A stretch of DNA of 64,000 nucleotides from Pyramidobacter piscolens W5455 (lineage in GTDB: Bacteria > Synergistota > Synergistia > Synergistales > Dethiosulfovibrionaceae), in assembly GCF_000177335.1 (NCBI RefSeq), contig NZ_ADFP01000124.1, positions 1-64,000 on the forward strand, written 5' to 3'. The translations under genes and the position numbers were made by a program. This document shows, one piece after another, positions 6,883 to 55,402 of this stretch. The notes under the pieces are model-generated. The model was not told where the DNA came from and did not search any database. It worked only from the letters and a program-made list of their open reading frames with translations. Each line of letters starts with the position of its first letter. Position 1 is the first letter of the stretch.

Positions 6883-6898
6883 TGTTCCACGTGGAACA
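6883..6898. promoter_or_regulatory. parS-type ParB-binding palindrome, copy 1
   Basis: TGTTCCACGTGGAACA fits the known chromosomal parS form TGTTNCACGTGNAACA with no mismatch. Here the symmetry extends to 26 bp (6878-6903). It lies between convergent genes, 11 bases after a terminator T run. Confidence 0.75.
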
Positions 6899-20391: not shown

Positions 20392-20407
20392 TGTTCCACG
20401 TGGAACA
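20392..20407. promoter_or_regulatory. parS-type ParB-binding palindrome, copy 2
   Basis: An exact TGTTCCACGTGGAACA, 11 bases after the his-operon terminator and eight bases before the end of mutM, again between convergent genes. Confidence 0.75.
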
Positions 20408-23505: not shown

Positions 23506-24990
23506 ATGCGCGTGCTCATGCTTGGCTGGGAGTTTCCGCCCGACAAGAGCGGAGGCCTTGGCACCGCCTGTTACGGCATCACGCAGGCGCTGCTGCGAAA
23601 AGGCACCGACGTGCTTTTCGTCATGCCGCAGACTCGCTTGACCGAGCACCCCGAGTCGCATGTCAGGCTGCGTTCCGCTTCGGGAACGCTGATTCCCGTC
23701 GTCTCGCGGAGCGAACCAGAAGCGGAGGGCCCCACGGCCGCGCCGGACAGCCGTTCCCAAAACGGTACGAGGCCACGGCAAAACAGCAGCATCGCGGAGC
23801 TTCAACGGTTTGCCGCGCGGATGGTCGTGCGCGGCATCAGGTCGAGCCTCCGCCCCTACGACAGCGCGGCAAGTTACGAACAACGACTCGCCCGGCACGG
23901 CAAAGGCCGCCGAACCTCAAGCGCCGCCGGCGGGAAAAATGAGATCTTCCGCCGCCTCGGGCTGCCGCAGCTTAGCGGGAGCGTTTGGCCGGCCGACGCC
24001 GCAGCGGCGGTCTCGCAGCCGCAAGACGCGCCCGTTCGCTGGAAGCCGGTCGAAATCCACGGCGGTTACGGGCAGGATCTGATGTCCGAAGTATACCGCT
24101 ACAGCCTCGCGGCCGCGCAGATCGCGCGCGAAGAAGAATTCGACGTGATCCACGTGCACGACTGGATGACCTATCCGGCGGGAATCCTCATCAAGCAGAT
24201 CACCGGCAAGCCGCTGATCGCTCACATCCACGCGCTGGAACACGACCGCAGCGGCGAAAACGTCAATCCCGAGATCGCCCACATCGAGTGGGCCGGCATG
24301 ACCGCCGCCGACCGCGTGGTCGCCGTAAGCTATTACACCAAGAGCAAAGTGATGCGCCTTTACCAGATCCCCGACGAAAAAATCGACGTCGTCCACAACG
24401 CCGTCAACCGCAACGAATCGCAGCTGGGCTGGCGAAGCATCCCGCCGCACCGGGAGAAGCGCGTGCTCTTCATGGGCCGCATCACGTACCAAAAAGGGCC
24501 CGACTACTTCGTCGAAGCCGCTCGGCTCGTGCACGAGCGCATGCCCGACGTGCACTTCGTCATGGCCGGCAGCGGCGACATGTTCTACCGCATGGTGCGC
24601 CGTATCGCCCAGCTGGGCATGGGGACCGCGTTCCACTTTCCCGGCTTCCAGTCCGGCGTGAACGTGGAACGGATGTATGCCAGCTGCGACCTTTACGTCA
24701 TGCCCAGCGTCTCCGAACCCTTCGGCATCGCCCCGCTGGAGGCAATGATCTGCGACACGCCGGTGATCCTTTCGCGGCAGTCCGGCGTCGCCGAAGTGGT
24801 GCGCAACGCGCTGAAGGTGGACTTTTGGGACGTTCAGGAGATGGCCAACAAAATTTGCGCCGTGCTCGCCTACCCGAAACTGGCCGAAGCGATGGTGAAG
24901 AACAGCCGCGAGGATCTGCGCCGCATCCGCTGGTCTGAAGCCGCCGATCGCCTGAACGCAATTTACCGTGACTGCATCCGGAGGAGTTGA
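23506..24990 (+). CDS. GT4-family glycosyltransferase of glycogen metabolism
   Basis: This 494-residue protein has the GT-B layout: an N-terminal GWEFPPDKSGGLGTACYGI loop, HVHDWMTYPAGI, and the C-terminal donor site FMGRITYQKGPDY through SVSEPFGIAPLEAM with the E-x7-E pair. Homologues sit between debranching enzyme and GH57 genes in Bacteroidetes-type glycogen loci. Residues about 65-170 carry a low-complexity, Arg/Ser/Pro-rich insert absent from the core fold. It overlaps the GH57 frame only if a TTG start is used there. Acceptor and donor (UDP- or ADP-glucose) are not known. Confidence 0.85.
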   Translation: MRVLMLGWEFPPDKSGGLGTACYGITQALLRKGTDVLFVMPQTRLTEHPESHVRLRSASGTLIPVVSRSEPEAEGPTAAPDSRSQNGTRPRQNSSIAELQRFAARMVVRGIRSSLRPYDSAASYEQRLARHGKGRRTSSAAGGKNEIFRRLGLPQLSGSVWPADAAAAVSQPQDAPVRWKPVEIHGGYGQDLMSEVYRYSLAAAQIAREEEFDVIHVHDWMTYPAGILIKQITGKPLIAHIHALEHDRSGENVNPEIAHIEWAGMTAADRVVAVSYYTKSKVMRLYQIPDEKIDVVHNAVNRNESQLGWRSIPPHREKRVLFMGRITYQKGPDYFVEAARLVHERMPDVHFVMAGSGDMFYRMVRRIAQLGMGTAFHFPGFQSGVNVERMYASCDLYVMPSVSEPFGIAPLEAMICDTPVILSRQSGVAEVVRNALKVDFWDVQEMANKICAVLAYPKLAEAMVKNSREDLRRIRWSEAADRLNAIYRDCIRRS

Positions 24991-48991: not shown

Positions 48992-49218
48992 CGTTGATCG
49001 TTCATAAATTATATGAAAAATTTTGATGACGCGTGTCCGTTGATACGAATAATTTTTATCACGAAAAGTGCGATCGATCCATCCTTATCGAGCAAAAGCC
49101 AACGGAGCGAGGCCGAATTTCGCTGACAGAGGAAAAGCAAGTCTCCCGCCACGAAGACGCGGCGAAAAAAAGAAAACGCTCAGCGGCCGGCGATGTTCCA
49201 CGTGGAACATAGCCTACG
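48992..49218. other. Upstream region of the sugar ABC operon
   Basis: No gene is seen. The palindrome TTCATA-AATTA-TATGAA (49001-49017) overlaps a minus-strand TATAAT -10 box (49008-49013) just before the ATPase gene, so it is a candidate operator. The rest, up to the parS-like site at 49194, shows no clear structure. Confidence 0.5.
49194..49209. promoter_or_regulatory. parS-type ParB-binding palindrome, copy 3
   Basis: An exact TGTTCCACGTGGAACA. As at the other two copies, it lies just past a terminator, here that of the minus-strand helicase gene, nine bases beyond its T run. Confidence 0.75.
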
Positions 49219-49253
49219 AAAAAAGCCTGGCGATCGTTCGACCGTCAGGCTTT
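49219..49253 (-). terminator. Terminator of the helicase-nuclease gene
   Basis: Read on the minus strand, AAAGCCTG and CAGGCTTT close a stem with an inner CGATC/GACCG-type pairing, followed by T residues (49219-49224). It lies about 75 bases past the helicase stop codon. Confidence 0.8.
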
Positions 49254-49328
49254 CCGCGTTGTTCGGCTTGAAGTTCCGCGCGTTCTTCCGGCTTTTTTCG
49301 TCTGCTTCGTGCCGTCTCTCTGGCGCGT

Positions 49329-52300
49329 TCATTTCAGCGTCCAGCAGCCGTTGCGGTCCGGCGCGGCCAGTCCGCGGGCGGATGCAAGAGCCAGCCCGGC
49401 GGCCGCGGCGTTCCGCGCGGAAGCTCCGGAGCGGGGATAGCCGAGTTTTTTCGCCGTTTCGCGCAGCAGGTCTTCCTCGGGCAGGGCGACCTGTTCGCGC
49501 AGCACTTCGCAAAGGGCGTTCGCAGCTTCCTGCGCGGGCACGTCGGCGGCGTCGCGTTTGGCGTCGCCGGCGCCGCTGACGCGGAATCCCGCGTAGTCGT
49601 CGGGGTCCTGCCCGCTGTGCCAGTACCAGACGGCGCCCTCGCGCTCGGTCGTTTGCAGTTTCATCGCCGCCAGCTGCTCGTCGAGATACTTCTGCGCGCG
49701 CGGCCCGAGGCGGGTCATGCCGAGGCTTTGCAGCAGGCGTCGTGTCAGCAGTTTTGCGGAAATAGGGGCTTCGGTGCACATGATGGCCTCGACGCGGCTG
49801 CGCAGCGTCTTCTTGCTGCGTGGGTCGACGAACTCGGCCGCGGTGAGTTTCTTCTCGGGCAACAGCGCGGGGCGGTACAGTCGGCCGTCCGTTCGGGGAG
49901 CCGTCATCGTTTTTTCGGCAGCGACATCTGCCTGCGGCGCAGGCTCCGCCTCCCCTGTGCGTTTTGGTTCGCCGCCATCGGCCGCGGCGGCCACCGTTTC
50001 GTTTTCAGCGGCGCGGCGCGCGGTCGCTTCGGCTTCGGCTTTCACGGCTTCCTCCGCGGCGCGGCGTTTGGCTTCGCGCTCTTCGCGGTGGTCGGCGCGG
50101 CGCGCTTCGATGCGGCGCAGCAGGCGATCCAGCTCGCGTTTCTTGTTATCCCACCAGTCCATGGTCCAGAGGCGCTCGATCGTCCAGCCCAGGCCGTTCA
50201 GCACGCCGATCTGGGAGATCTCGCGCTCGCGCACCATGCGGGCGTCGCGGTAGGCGCCGCCGTCGAGCAGAATGCCCAGCAGGTATTCGCCGGGCTGATC
50301 GGGATCGACGACGCCGATGTCGACGCGGAATTTGGAATGTCCGACCTGCCGCGCCGTCTCGTAGCCGCGTTCGTTCAGCCGCGCGCAGATCTCGGCGGCG
50401 ACGCCGTCGGGTTCGCGCGGCGCGCCCGTTCCCGCGGCGGAGGCTTTCAGCGGCAGATAGCCGCTGCGCGCGTACTGCAAAAAGGCTTTCAGCGCCGCCA
50501 CGCCCTCGGACGCGGTGCGGGTCAGGTCGATCTGCTCGGGTTCCAGCGACGAGAACACCATCATCTCGGCGCGCGAACGCGACACGGCGACGTTGAGCCG
50601 CCGCCAGCCGCCGGCCTGGTTGACGGGGCCGAAGTTCATGCTCACGCGCCCTTCGCGGTCGGCGCCGAAGCCGATCGAGAACAGGATCACGTCGCGCTCG
50701 TCGCCCTGCACGTTCTCGAGGTTTTTGATGAACAACGGCTCCTCCGATTCCTGGTACCATTTTTCCAGCTCGGGATCCTGGCCGCGGGCCTCTTCGAAGA
50801 GATCGTCGACAAGATTCTGCTGGGAGACGTTGAAGGTGACGACGCCGACGCTTTCGCGGCGCCGCGCCGGATCTTTGGCGCGGCGGATCACTTCGGCCAC
50901 GACGGCTTCGGCCTCGGCGCGGTTGGTTCTGGAACCGCCGCGGTCGAACGTGCCGTCGATCTTGACGAAACTCACCTTCGAAACGCGGTCGTTCGCCGAC
51001 GGGAACGTGTAGAGCTTGTTCTCGTAGAACCGGTTGTTGCTGAAGGCGATCAGGCTTTCGTGGCGGCTGCGGTAGTGCCAGAGCAGGTGCGTCTCCGGCA
51101 TGCCGAGCGCCAGACAGTCGTCGAGGATGCTGGTGAGGTCGGCCACTTCGGGGTCTTCCTCGCGGTCGTCGAGGTTGGTCATGAAAAAGCTCGTGGGCGG
51201 CATTTGCTTCGGGTCGCCGACGATCACGGCGTCGCGGCCGCGGGCCAGCGCGCCGACGGCTTTGCTGGTGGTGAGCTGCGACGCTTCGTCGAAGACGACG
51301 AGGTCGAACATCTCGCGCCGCGGGTCGAGGTACTGGGCGGCCGAGATCGGGCTCATGAGCATGCAGGGACACAGGCGCGGCAGCAGATTGGGCAGCTGCC
51401 CGAAGAGGCGGCGGATGCTGAGATTGCGCCCGCCGGAACGGATGGCGCGCTGCAAGATGCCCAGTTCGGAGTTCTGCGAGGCTTCGCGCGTGAAATCGGG
51501 CACCCGGGCGGCCAGAACGGCGCAGGCCTCGGCGCTGGCCAGCCGCGCCAGTTCGTCGATCAGTTCCTTGATCTGAGACACCTTTTCGCCGAAGACCGCG
51601 CCGGAGAAACGGTTCAACACGGGATCGCCGTCGACGGCGTCCTCGATGAGGTTGCGCAGGCAGGCCTTGCGGTACGCCGGCAGCACTTTGTCGTGCGCCA
51701 GCCCGTTCCGGCAGGCCGAGACGACGGGCCCCAGTCCGGCCGCTACGGCTTCTTCGCACAAGCTGTTCCAGAGGATCCAGTCGCGCAAGACGTCGGCGTC
51801 GTTCAGCAGCGCGGCGCAGAGATCTTTCAGCGCCGCGAGCCAGTCGTCGCCGTCGGGAGGATCTTCCGTGCGCAGCAATTCGTCGAGCGCGCCGCGCGAC
51901 GTCTCCAGTTCCTGCCAGATCGTCAGCAGTTCCGCGGCGGCCCGCTGCGATTCGGGATCGGCGGCGTGACGCTGCCGCAGCGCCGTTCCGCCGCTCAGAT
52001 CGTCAAGGCGAACGGCGCTCTGCGCGGCGTTCCGCGCCAGTTCATCGACGCGCCGCCAGTCCGTGTCACCGCCGCGGTCGAGCGACTCGAGACCGGGGCC
52101 GTATTCCCGCAAAAGCTGCTGGGCACGCGCCAGCTCGGCGCGATAGGCGTTCAGCCGGTCGAGATCGCCGGGCGCGTCCTCTTTGCCGCGCGGCGCCAGC
52201 GCGTAGGACGAAAGTTTTCTCACGAACCCCGACTCGGCCAACAGACGCGGCAGCAGCCATTTCCGCTCGATCCCGTCCCACTCGCCGCGCAGGGCCTTGC

Positions 52301-55247
52301 CGTCCTGTTCGAAAAACGCCGGACGATATTCTTTCAGCAGTTCGCCGCCGATCTCCGCGGCGGCACGGTAATGCCGGGCCATTTCCCGCACGCCGCGCAG
52401 ATACGTTCCGGCGTCGTTTTCCGCCGCCCAGCGGCGCGGCGTTTCCCGCCACCGGACCAGCTCAACGGCGATGTCGCGAAGCTGGTCGTATTCCTTTTTC
52501 AAACGCGGCGCGCCCAATCCCAGCCGCGCCGCGAAGGCCCGCGCCGCGCGTTCCGAAGCGTCGAGGCGCGCCCGATAATCTTCGGCCAGCGCCGGCAGTT
52601 GGCTGCGCAAGCGCTGCGAGTACTCCGTTTCCGTCACAAGCCGCAGCGGATGGCCGCAGGGGCGCCCGACCGCCCGCGCGGCGGCGGCAAGGCGGCCGAG
52701 CAGCGACTCGTTGCGTTCCAAATCGGCTGCCGTCCAGGCGGCGGTGCGCGAATATTCGAGGCGGATGCCGGCGTCGTCGGCGTCGGCCAGCGGCTCGTAG
52801 GCGTTGACCATCTCGTAAACGGAAAGTCCCGAAACGCGCTTTTCGTGCAGACGGCGCGGATATTCCGCCAGCTCGGCGCGCAGCCGGGCGGCCTGCTCGG
52901 CCTTCTGCGCGTAGATCGGGGTTTTCTGCGCGCGTCCGGCTTCGGCGGCGGCGCGCAGCTGCTCGAGCACGTCTTTTTTGCGGGCTTTGTTGGAATGGAG
53001 TTCGAGGCAGAACGGATCGAGCCCCAGCTTGCGCAGGCGTTTCTGCACGACCGACAGCGCCGCCATCTTCTCGGCGACGAAAAGCACGGTCTTGCCCCGC
53101 GCCAGCGCGTTGACGATCAGTCCCGTGATGGTCTGCGACTTGCCGGTGCCGGGCGGCCCGTGCAGCACGAACGTTTCGCCCGCCACGGCCGCCTTGACGG
53201 CGTAGAGCTGCGACGAGTCCACCGGCAGCGGCAGCAGCAGTCCGGCCTCGTCGAGTTCCCGCGGCGGCTCCATGGGCGCGGCTTCCCAGCTCAGTTTGCC
53301 GTCCATCAGGCTTCGCACGACTTTGTTCTTTTCGAGATCGTCCATGCGGTTGCGGATATCGTTCCACATCACGAAGCGCGAGAACGAGAAGATGCCCACG
53401 AAGGCCGACTCGATCACGTCCCAGCGTTTCTGCTGCATCACGGCGCGGCGCACGGCGGTGAAGACGCGCACGACGTCGGCGCCGTGTTCGTCGGACGGCA
53501 GCGGGTCGAGTCCGTCGACGACGATGCCGAAGTTCTGCTTGAGCATCTCCAGCAGCGTCACGTTCATGACCGGCTCCTCGTCGCGCAGGCGCAGACCGTA
53601 GCCTTTGTTGGCGGCCTTGCGCACCAGCTCCGCCGGCAGCAGGACCAGCGGCGCGTAGCGCGGGCGTTCGCTGCGCTCGGTTTCGTACCAGCGCAGCAGT
53701 CCCATCGACAGATACAGGCTGTTGGCGCCGTTTTCTTCGATCGACACTTTGGCGGCGCGGTACAGTTCTTTGACGGCTCGCTGCAGCTCAGCCTCGCCCA
53801 TCAGCGAGCGCAGCCGCCCGTTCTGGTACTCCGATTGCAGCAGTTCGCGGGAAAGCGGCAGCTCGGCCGGCGGTTCCAGGCTGCGTGCCGCCCCCTCGGG
53901 CAGACGCCACTCCTGCGGGCGCGGCGAGACGGTGAACTGCCGTCCGTCGGAAAGCGCGTCTTCGAGCTGCGGCAGCGACGCGGCCAGCACGGGGATCAAA
54001 TTCTTGGAGGCGCGCAGGTTGAGCAGCGTGTTGCGCAGCCCCAGATCGAGCAGCTTGCGTTCCCACTGCAGGATTTTCTTTCCGCGCGCGTCCAGCGGTT
54101 TCTGCGCCGCCGATTGTCCGGCGCTTTCGGGGACGCGCGCCGCCATTTCTTCCGGCGCGGCGGTCAGCTCCGCGGCGGAACGCGACTCGGCCTCCACGCG
54201 CCAGCCCTGATCGGTCCGCACGCGCAGCGGCAGCGGCCGGATTCCCGCCAGGCGGGCTCGGTGCACGTCGACGACATAACGCACTGGATTGTCGTCGCCC
54301 ATCTCCGCCGCGGCGGCGGCGCGGGCTTCGTCGAAGGTCATTCCTTTTCCGGCGGCGGCGCCGGTGCACTCCACCACGGCGATCTCGCCGATGCCGTCGG
54401 CCATGCGTTTGCTCACCAGAGCCGGATCGTCCTTGACCGCGTCCTGAAAAGTCATTTCTTCCAGCCAGACGCCGGCGAAAATATGATCGTTCTTGAGCAG
54501 AAGCAGCGGATACAGTCCCGCCGCCTCGAGGCAGGCCGCGTAGAGCAGCGTCAGGTCGAGGCAGGTGCCCATCCGCGTTCCTGTCACCGCGTCGCAGAGG
54601 CACACGCGCTGTCCCGTCGCTTCGAAACTCGACGGCGGTACGGCGTAGACGACGTTCAGCTCCTGAATCGCGCCGTACAGGGCGGCCGCCTGCTGAAGCG
54701 CGCGATTGGGATTCTGCGTCTGATAGGCGTCGAACGAGGGGCTGCCCGTCCACTCATTCAGCAGTTCCGAAGCGCGTCTCATCAACTTGGCGATCTCGGG
54801 ATGGTTGGGCGTGACGAAGGCCACCAGCAGCTCGGGATAGTAGCCACTTCCCTGCCACTCGTCGAAGGCCAGGAAAGTCGCTTCTTTCACGACGGAAGCC
54901 AGACGGCGCTCTCCCTGCCAGACTTCAGCCGTCAGCGTCGTGACGACGCGCTCCGTCAGCTGTGCGAGACGCTCGGCCCTGAGCGTGAGTTTGAGGTTAC
55001 CGATCTCCGCGGTCTCGCCGGCCGGAAGCTGCGCGACGCCGAATCTCGCCGGCTCGACAAAATCCTCCGCCGCGAAAAGGCGCACTTCCAGATCTTCCAA
55101 ATCCGCGTCGCCGTCATTGCTCACGGCGACGCGGCGCACAAGAGGCAGGCCGTTCTGCTGCTGCGCGTAGTTGGCGACGGGCGTCAGCTGCACGTCCAGT
55201 GTGATTGCCGCCGTTTGTTCGTCCATGGCTCTCTCCTCGTTCGTCAA
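49329..55247 (-). CDS. Giant DUF4011 superfamily 1 helicase with Vsr-like nuclease and DUF3320 domains
   Basis: Domains of this 1972-residue protein, in order: a beta-rich start (about 10-110); a transglutaminase-like region with Cys229 (GTCLDL) and His255 (KNDHIFAG); DUF4011 from about 390 (WERKLLDLGLRNTLLNLR); an SF1 UPF1-like helicase with Walker A 698-705 (GPPGTGKS), Walker B D1320-E1321 (VVFDEASQL), WHYRSRHESLIAF and a late VAVSRSR motif; a Vsr/MTES_1575-like endonuclease (about 1615-1705, FRVDIGVV); an Ala/Glu-rich linker; and DUF3320 (about 1795-1860). Proteins of this layout are widespread in bacteria and suspected of nucleic-acid defence or repair roles. The gene stands alone and intact. 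GGAGAG precedes the start. Confidence 0.88.
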   Translation of the reverse strand: MTNEERAMDEQTAAITLDVQLTPVANYAQQQNGLPLVRRVAVSNDGDADLEDLEVRLFAAEDFVEPARFGVAQLPAGETAEIGNLKLTLRAERLAQLTERVVTTLTAEVWQGERRLASVVKEATFLAFDEWQGSGYYPELLVAFVTPNHPEIAKLMRRASELLNEWTGSPSFDAYQTQNPNRALQQAAALYGAIQELNVVYAVPPSSFEATGQRVCLCDAVTGTRMGTCLDLTLLYAACLEAAGLYPLLLLKNDHIFAGVWLEEMTFQDAVKDDPALVSKRMADGIGEIAVVECTGAAAGKGMTFDEARAAAAAEMGDDNPVRYVVDVHRARLAGIRPLPLRVRTDQGWRVEAESRSAAELTAAPEEMAARVPESAGQSAAQKPLDARGKKILQWERKLLDLGLRNTLLNLRASKNLIPVLAASLPQLEDALSDGRQFTVSPRPQEWRLPEGAARSLEPPAELPLSRELLQSEYQNGRLRSLMGEAELQRAVKELYRAAKVSIEENGANSLYLSMGLLRWYETERSERPRYAPLVLLPAELVRKAANKGYGLRLRDEEPVMNVTLLEMLKQNFGIVVDGLDPLPSDEHGADVVRVFTAVRRAVMQQKRWDVIESAFVGIFSFSRFVMWNDIRNRMDDLEKNKVVRSLMDGKLSWEAAPMEPPRELDEAGLLLPLPVDSSQLYAVKAAVAGETFVLHGPPGTGKSQTITGLIVNALARGKTVLFVAEKMAALSVVQKRLRKLGLDPFCLELHSNKARKKDVLEQLRAAAEAGRAQKTPIYAQKAEQAARLRAELAEYPRRLHEKRVSGLSVYEMVNAYEPLADADDAGIRLEYSRTAAWTAADLERNESLLGRLAAAARAVGRPCGHPLRLVTETEYSQRLRSQLPALAEDYRARLDASERAARAFAARLGLGAPRLKKEYDQLRDIAVELVRWRETPRRWAAENDAGTYLRGVREMARHYRAAAEIGGELLKEYRPAFFEQDGKALRGEWDGIERKWLLPRLLAESGFVRKLSSYALAPRGKEDAPGDLDRLNAYRAELARAQQLLREYGPGLESLDRGGDTDWRRVDELARNAAQSAVRLDDLSGGTALRQRHAADPESQRAAAELLTIWQELETSRGALDELLRTEDPPDGDDWLAALKDLCAALLNDADVLRDWILWNSLCEEAVAAGLGPVVSACRNGLAHDKVLPAYRKACLRNLIEDAVDGDPVLNRFSGAVFGEKVSQIKELIDELARLASAEACAVLAARVPDFTREASQNSELGILQRAIRSGGRNLSIRRLFGQLPNLLPRLCPCMLMSPISAAQYLDPRREMFDLVVFDEASQLTTSKAVGALARGRDAVIVGDPKQMPPTSFFMTNLDDREEDPEVADLTSILDDCLALGMPETHLLWHYRSRHESLIAFSNNRFYENKLYTFPSANDRVSKVSFVKIDGTFDRGGSRTNRAEAEAVVAEVIRRAKDPARRRESVGVVTFNVSQQNLVDDLFEEARGQDPELEKWYQESEEPLFIKNLENVQGDERDVILFSIGFGADREGRVSMNFGPVNQAGGWRRLNVAVSRSRAEMMVFSSLEPEQIDLTRTASEGVAALKAFLQYARSGYLPLKASAAGTGAPREPDGVAAEICARLNERGYETARQVGHSKFRVDIGVVDPDQPGEYLLGILLDGGAYRDARMVREREISQIGVLNGLGWTIERLWTMDWWDNKKRELDRLLRRIEARRADHREEREAKRRAAEEAVKAEAEATARRAAENETVAAAADGGEPKRTGEAEPAPQADVAAEKTMTAPRTDGRLYRPALLPEKKLTAAEFVDPRSKKTLRSRVEAIMCTEAPISAKLLTRRLLQSLGMTRLGPRAQKYLDEQLAAMKLQTTEREGAVWYWHSGQDPDDYAGFRVSGAGDAKRDAADVPAQEAANALCEVLREQVALPEEDLLRETAKKLGYPRSGASARNAAAAGLALASARGLAAPDRNGCWTLK

Positions 55248-55360
55248 TGAGATGAAAAACTTTCTCTCTTCTTATAAACAAAAAGCTCCAAAAAGGCAAG
55301 CGCTACCGAGCGATTCCCCCGTCCGCCGCCGGATTCTTCGGCGATGGCCACCGGCGTCCA

Positions 55361-55402
55361 TAAAACAAAAGAGACCGGCGCGAACCGGTCTCTTTTGTTT
55401 TA
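55361..55402 (-). terminator. Terminator of the acid-sugar operon, overlapping a stop codon
   Basis: A perfect 18-bp stem (55361-55378 with 55385-55402) has a six-base loop and A/T-rich ends. Its right end contains the stop codon of the PanE-like gene. Confidence 0.9.

Follow-up and report, generated by a model that had tools for sequence, protein, structure and literature searches.

A 64,000-nucleotide stretch of the Pyramidobacter piscolens W5455 genome (contig NZ_ADFP01000124.1; hereafter the window) carries on its minus strand a giant gene whose predicted product joins a helicase, a nuclease and a protease-like region in one chain. The question raised by this locus is what such a protein is for, and whether it acts as an anti-phage system of its own. 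An initial annotation, made from the letters of the window, had proposed it as a new candidate for anti-phage or repair functions, with an additional sensing or effector step in the protease-like front end.

Structure of the gene

The open reading frame (49329-55247, minus strand) runs uninterrupted over 1972 codons from a TTG at 55247, in agreement with the initial reading of one intact giant gene. Since a GAGGAG ribosome-binding-like stretch lies just 5' of an ATG at 55226, a protein of 1965 residues starting there is the likelier product. Unless stated otherwise, residues are numbered from this ATG, so that the residues first annotated as Cys229 and His255 are Cys222 and His248 here. Chance was excluded as the source of the frame, because full-length relatives with 52-91% identity are present in four other genomes. 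Strong hairpins end both the upstream neighbour and the gene itself (Table 1), and the gene is therefore probably its own single-gene transcription unit. Both hairpins were seen by folding and missed by a terminator pattern scanner, and no promoter match was obtained in either of the two stretches scanned.

Table 1. Features of the gene and its borders in window coordinates; residue numbers refer to the 1965-residue form.
Feature	Position	Strand	Basis
Hairpin after the upstream ketopantoate-reductase-like gene	55358..55402	-	Folding, -28.3 kcal/mol, z -9.5
ProA coding sequence, 1965 aa (alternative TTG start 55247, 1972 aa)	49329..55226	-	ORF, ribosome-binding-like stretch, NCBIfam
N-terminal Ig-like beta-sandwich, residues about 1-120	54867..55226	-	AlphaFold2; VIA-align
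Transglutaminase-like domain, residues about 121-340	54207..54866	-	Boundaries by inspection
Cys222 codon, triad	54561..54563	-	Alignment
His248 codon, triad	54483..54485	-	Alignment
Asp267 codon, triad	54426..54428	-	Alignment
DUF4011, residues 391-562	53541..54056	-	Pfam 1.3e-44
SF1 helicase part one, Walker A GPPGTGKS (690-697)	52947..53306	-	Pfam, alignment, fold matches
Helical insert, residues 761-1230 (about 470), separating helicase motifs	51537..52946	-	AlphaFold2; boundaries by inspection
Recombinant tract (by identity pattern)	52054..52754		93.5-97.5% to G001 vs 82-83% to nearer G004/G005
SF1 helicase part two (DEAS from 1313, NVQGDERD from 1505, VSRSR from 1548)	50457..51536	-	Pfam, alignment
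MTES_1575 Vsr-like nuclease, residues 1612-1706	50109..50393	-	Pfam 1.5e-23; Asp1636, Asp1655 invariant
DUF3320 winged helix, residues 1798-1844	49695..49835	-	Pfam 1.6e-8
Terminator hairpin 3' of ProA	49215..49256	-	Folding, -19.8 kcal/mol, z -4.2
parS-like palindrome TGTTCCACGTGGAACA; the W5455 genome has 54 exact copies	49194..49209		Exact search

Helicase, nuclease and C-terminal module

The DUF4011, intact SF1 helicase, Vsr-like nuclease and DUF3320 of the initial annotation were all recovered as Pfam matches, and the helicase and nuclease motifs are intact. Pfam also finds AAA_11 and AAA_12 in the helicase, and its motifs and fold are those of a UPF1-like SF1 enzyme. Residues 595-1720 were modelled by AlphaFold2 with a pLDDT of 78.2 and a pTM of 0.46; the best structure matches of this model are the helicases Aquarius, SMUBP2, UPF1, Dna2 and Sen1. 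By sequence and predicted fold the helicase core is thus shared with UPF1, SMUBP2, Aquarius and Dna2, to which the Pyramidobacter protein adds the large helical insert, DUF4011 and the effector domains. The MTES_1575 nuclease scores 83.1 bits in Pfam against a cut-off of 38.2.

Eleven positions of the helicase and nuclease were tabulated, from Gly690 to Asp1655; apart from L059, an incomplete copy that is misaligned before Gln1507, all homologues covering these positions retain them. Glu1669 and Gln1672 are less strict: three proteobacterial relatives have Asp and Arg there, and L044 likewise has Asp in place of Glu1669. In four Lachnospiraceae homologues (L038, L039, L040 and L054) the C-terminal end aligns poorly with the DUF3320 region. 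One of these, L039, passes the cut-off of the family model described below (1668 bits) despite its poor C-terminal alignment, and the C-terminal module therefore looks exchangeable.

A transglutaminase-like front end

AlphaFold2, run with 28 sequences, modelled residues 1-395 (pLDDT 85.5) as two units, an Ig-like sandwich and, after it, an alpha/beta domain. VIA-align matched residues 3-121 to beta-sandwich domains with Z up to 10.6; its rows cover only residues 1-137, with none over the transglutaminase-like part. Members of the transglutaminase-like superfamily carry Cys, His and Asp in this order, with the Cys starting a helix and the His starting a strand. The same arrangement is predicted for the front end: Cys222 is the first residue of helix 222-235, His248 is the first residue of strand 248-254, and Asp267 supplies the third member of the triad. 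Structure prediction around the cysteine, the check that the initial annotation had proposed, is thus in line with its transglutaminase-like reading.

Among the 38 proteins of a 46-sequence alignment that cover this region, Cys and His are conserved in 37 and Asp in all 38. Conservation of Cys and His spans Proteobacteria and Bacteroidota, and five relatives drawn from four plasmids and one phage-collection record all carry the triad. The exception, L027, has Ile and Arg in place of Cys and His; all its other tabulated helicase and nuclease positions are intact. The near-universal retention of the triad among homologues makes it probable that the front end is an active cysteine enzyme, and the protease-like region noted at the outset is accordingly best read as probably catalytic.

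Pfam gives no match in the front end of the Pyramidobacter protein; among 28 aligned members, 7 have a sub-threshold Transglut_core match (best E 0.011). Foldseek rows to transglutaminases 2 and 3 span 394-437 columns, with low TM-score, and searching PDB sequences with a profile of the N-terminal alignment yielded no match at E<=5.

Membership of the ProA family

Judged by profile score, the gene belongs to ProA, an already named single-protein anti-phage family. The whole profile (1-1903) of the NCBIfam model NF058533 ("anti-phage protein ProA") matches residues 26-1939 of the 1972-residue form with 2060 bits, above its cut-off of 1500. The same cut-off is passed by eight of the nine proteins that were scanned with NCBIfam; the sole failure, L046, is half of a gene split over two frames. 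The PADLOC candidate PDC-S37 matches residues 390-1954 with 1185 bits (profile 8-1532 of 1550), and its profile starts after the Ig and transglutaminase-like domains of ProA. PADLOC also gives a partial Hhe match of 535 bits. ProA resembles Hhe in its helicase-nuclease half, but the protein is not Hhe, since the NCBIfam model NF042953 scores 750 bits, far under its cut-off of 2000.

Giant proteins in which a transglutaminase, an SF1 helicase, a Vsr-family nuclease and winged helices are fused to HEPN appear in a 2013 analysis, which proposed that they attack invading DNA and that protein cleavage forms a further line of defence (PMC3710099). The Pyramidobacter protein has the transglutaminase, the SF1 helicase, the Vsr-family restriction endonuclease (MTES_1575) and the winged helix of the giants so described, whereas Pfam finds no HEPN domain in it. 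Since a defence role was predicted for this architecture as early as 2013 and the family has already been named, the gene is a further member of a known family. The suggested anti-phage candidacy is therefore supported at the level of profiles, by the NCBIfam equivalog model and by PDC-S37; its novelty is not. No publication behind the ProA name was found in the open-access literature; subscription journals may differ.

Genomic context and recombination

ProA occupies one locus in four close Pyramidobacter species and lies elsewhere in a more distant one. On both sides the flanks match those of G004 and G005 at 95-99% identity, and the near flanks match those of G001 at 87-95%, while neither of the two ProA contigs of G002 shows any of the flanking genes tested. 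The near genes encode a ketopantoate reductase and components of a sugar-type ABC transporter. When 110 ORFs of the window (at least 180 aa, both strands, spurious frames included) were compared with PADLOC, only matches of mad3, AriA, mad8 and RtcR type were obtained. The neighbourhood check suggested by the initial annotation hence returned nothing beyond ATPase-type and regulator-type families at the W5455 locus, and within the 64-kb window there is no sign, in the encoded proteins, of a defence island. This copy is chromosomal and without defence neighbours.

In G040 a YhcG/DUF1016 nuclease adjoins the ProA copy. Across homologous loci, PADLOC found restriction-modification and other defence families in both near flanks (207 ORFs within 3 kb, 46 loci) and far flanks (145 ORFs at least 5.5 kb away, 31 loci), with families counted and no random-genome baseline; from the 492 flanking ORFs, those 3-5.5 kb away or under 100 aa had been dropped. 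When large neighbours, picked by size, were scanned singly, 5 of 10 matched PADLOC models at 1e-10.

The dS of the gene to G004 is 0.233, compared with 0.042-0.152 for eight flanking genes, and in the helical insert dS reaches 0.399 to G004 and 0.230 to the more distant G001. A 400-column stretch at window positions 52754-52354 is 97.5% identical to G001 and 83.0% identical to G004. By this identity pattern the tract within the helical insert (Table 1) is recombinant. Over the whole gene dN/dS is about 0.2, indicating mostly purifying selection, and the linker 1716-1785 reaches 0.64-0.81; these ratios were calculated by simple NG86 with few differences per segment.

Between ProA and the ABC transporter, G004 and G005 carry an insertion of about 2 kb (L071 and L075; in G005:C1 at about 633780-635830). 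It contains a transposase-like frame of 605 codons, recognized by eye, and is flanked by a repeat of about 50 bases that contains the palindrome discussed below. Elements of the IS1634 type make long target duplications. A palindrome-bounded element was considered and rejected, as the transposase-like frame and the flanking repeat of about 50 bases point to an ordinary insertion that made a long duplication of its target. A single tRNA was found in the window, a tRNA-Ser (CGA) at 24227-24319.

Distribution and horizontal transfer

All five other Pyramidobacter genomes searched contain ProA, three at full length with 90-91% identity and two as split MAG copies that are about 70% identical along most of its length. 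Eight genomes from other genera in the family all lack the gene. Within Synergistota the ProA cut-off is passed in 7 of 185 genomes, W5455 included, in addition to the two split MAG copies. Two Synergistota matches (G079:C8:9518-14860 and G180:C36:196949-201568) start at model positions 159 and 337, possibly without the front end.

In a tree of 38 proteins, Pyramidobacter stands beside an Oscillospiraceae MAG with a support of 0.96, and by this placement Pyramidobacter ProA nests inside gut Clostridia. The other Synergistota copy in the tree, G040, is placed elsewhere among Clostridia. Because the two copies sit apart, they are most simply explained by two separate entries into Synergistota. 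The ProA family is passed among gut bacteria.

Relatives also occur on mobile elements. A search of 72,556 plasmid records gave matches at E<=1e-30 in 352, of which 209 are typed conjugative; only 3 of the 352 cover 80% of the query in one place. The ProA cut-off is passed by all four plasmid proteins scanned. In P. aeruginosa, one copy is found on a record whose annotation includes integrating-conjugative-element genes, and among 50,697 phage records there is a single match at E<=1e-20, an unverified faecal clone. Vertical inheritance at a fixed locus, which the initial annotation had set against a defence role, thus holds only within the four close Pyramidobacter species, and breaks down beyond them with the other locus in G002, the tree, and the sister genera that lack the gene.

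Proposed mode of action

From the domains and the family assignment we consider it likely that ProA is a single-protein anti-phage system in which the helicase locates phage DNA for the nuclease to cut and the cysteine domain contributes a second, gated step. The DUF4011-SF1 helicase would load on foreign DNA, probably at ends or replication intermediates, aided by the C-terminal winged helix, and the helical insert may provide a surface for sensing or binding, after which the Vsr-like nuclease would cut. As a second step, the transglutaminase-like cysteine enzyme could carry out proteolysis, on linkers of ProA itself or on a host or phage target, or act as a licensing switch for the nuclease. 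The scheme is weakest at the part given to the cysteine domain, for which there are rival explanations.

One of them would have the front end cleave a linker of ProA after the helicase has sensed phage DNA, so that the nuclease is freed within one chain. The strict triad, the low-confidence linkers around 347-377 in the AlphaFold2 model and the fast-changing linker 1716-1785 are consistent with such protease gating, and nuclease-protease pairs are reported in antiviral immunity (PMC12799240). Fast linkers are expected anyway, however, and L027 has lost Cys and His with its other tabulated positions intact, and we regard protease gating as rather unlikely. The same homologue speaks for a front end that is structural, a transglutaminase fold whose sole task is to bind a partner or protein, its enzyme activity being dispensable, as does the lack of any above-threshold match to an enzymatic family in the query's front end. 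Retention of Cys and His in 37 of 38 proteins, from Proteobacteria to Bacteroidota, makes a purely structural role rather unlikely.

Repair or maintenance of the chromosome by a helicase-nuclease, outside defence, could account for the fixed locus in four close species and has a possible parallel in P. aeruginosa, where one study places a DUF4011 gene in every isolate, bordering a defence hotspot (PMC10250203), but this is improbable given the absence from sister genera, the sparse occurrence in Synergistota, the relatives on plasmids, the nesting in Clostridia and the recombinant tract. For the anti-phage reading, which we prefer, the conserved triad, the recombining insert and the exchangeable C-terminal module are a guide to where to mutate.

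A parS-like palindrome repeated around the chromosome

The initial annotation had placed a terminator and a parS-like site at the 3' border of the gene. Both exist, but the palindrome TGTTCCACGTGGAACA is not a feature of ProA, since 54 exact copies are spread across the W5455 genome; in the window it also occurs at 6883-6898 and 20392-20407. The chromosomal parS sites of ParB are 16-base palindromes with the consensus TGTTNCACGTGNAACA, which TGTTCCACGTGGAACA fits. Exact copies number 53, 55 and 57 in three other Pyramidobacter species (among G001, G004 and G005), and none was found in 57 other genomes searched; a reversed control had zero matches. With up to two mismatches, W5455 contains 77 sites, compared with 1 for the control. 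The wider pattern TGTTNCACGTGNAACA was counted in 21 genomes and occurs 54-57 times in the four Pyramidobacter and 0-3 times in the other 17, where the parS-type sites listed are spelled TGTTTCACGTGAAACA and lie, where several are listed, within about 17 kb of each other. If the sites are true parS, the clade has both respelled and multiplied its site, as sister genera keep 0-3 and those listed have the other spelling.

In W5455 two sites, 116 bases apart, lie 1.6-1.75 kb from the only ParB_N match, at a locus with rsmG-like and parA-like frames (identified by eye). A pair at 160.5 kb in G005 is spaced by 117 bases and, because of this resemblance, probably marks parB there. The 57 sites of G005 do not cluster at one place as origin-bound parS would; they occur all round the chromosome, densest near the parB region. 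Binned by sixths of the distance from the 160.5 kb pair they number 17, 15, 10, 9, 3 and 3 (Rayleigh p about 2e-5), and on the far side there are gaps of 390 and 271 kb.

These counts lead us to favour, by a modest degree of confidence, the reading that the roughly 55 copies of TGTTCCACGTGGAACA found all round the chromosome in one Pyramidobacter clade are true ParB sites, with a single ParB that would serve as partition protein and as a genome-wide, Noc-like marker. Alternatively, another DNA-binding protein could own the sites. According to a review, genomes have at most 20-23 parS sites, located near the origin, and additional ones are tolerated in no more than a restricted zone (PMC7333895). 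About 55 dispersed sites, if true parS, would directly test this rule on number and zone. The genome-wide palindrome is a more unusual observation than the ProA gene itself. When match and site coordinates were compared, all three sites of the window had counterparts at matching places in G001 and G005.
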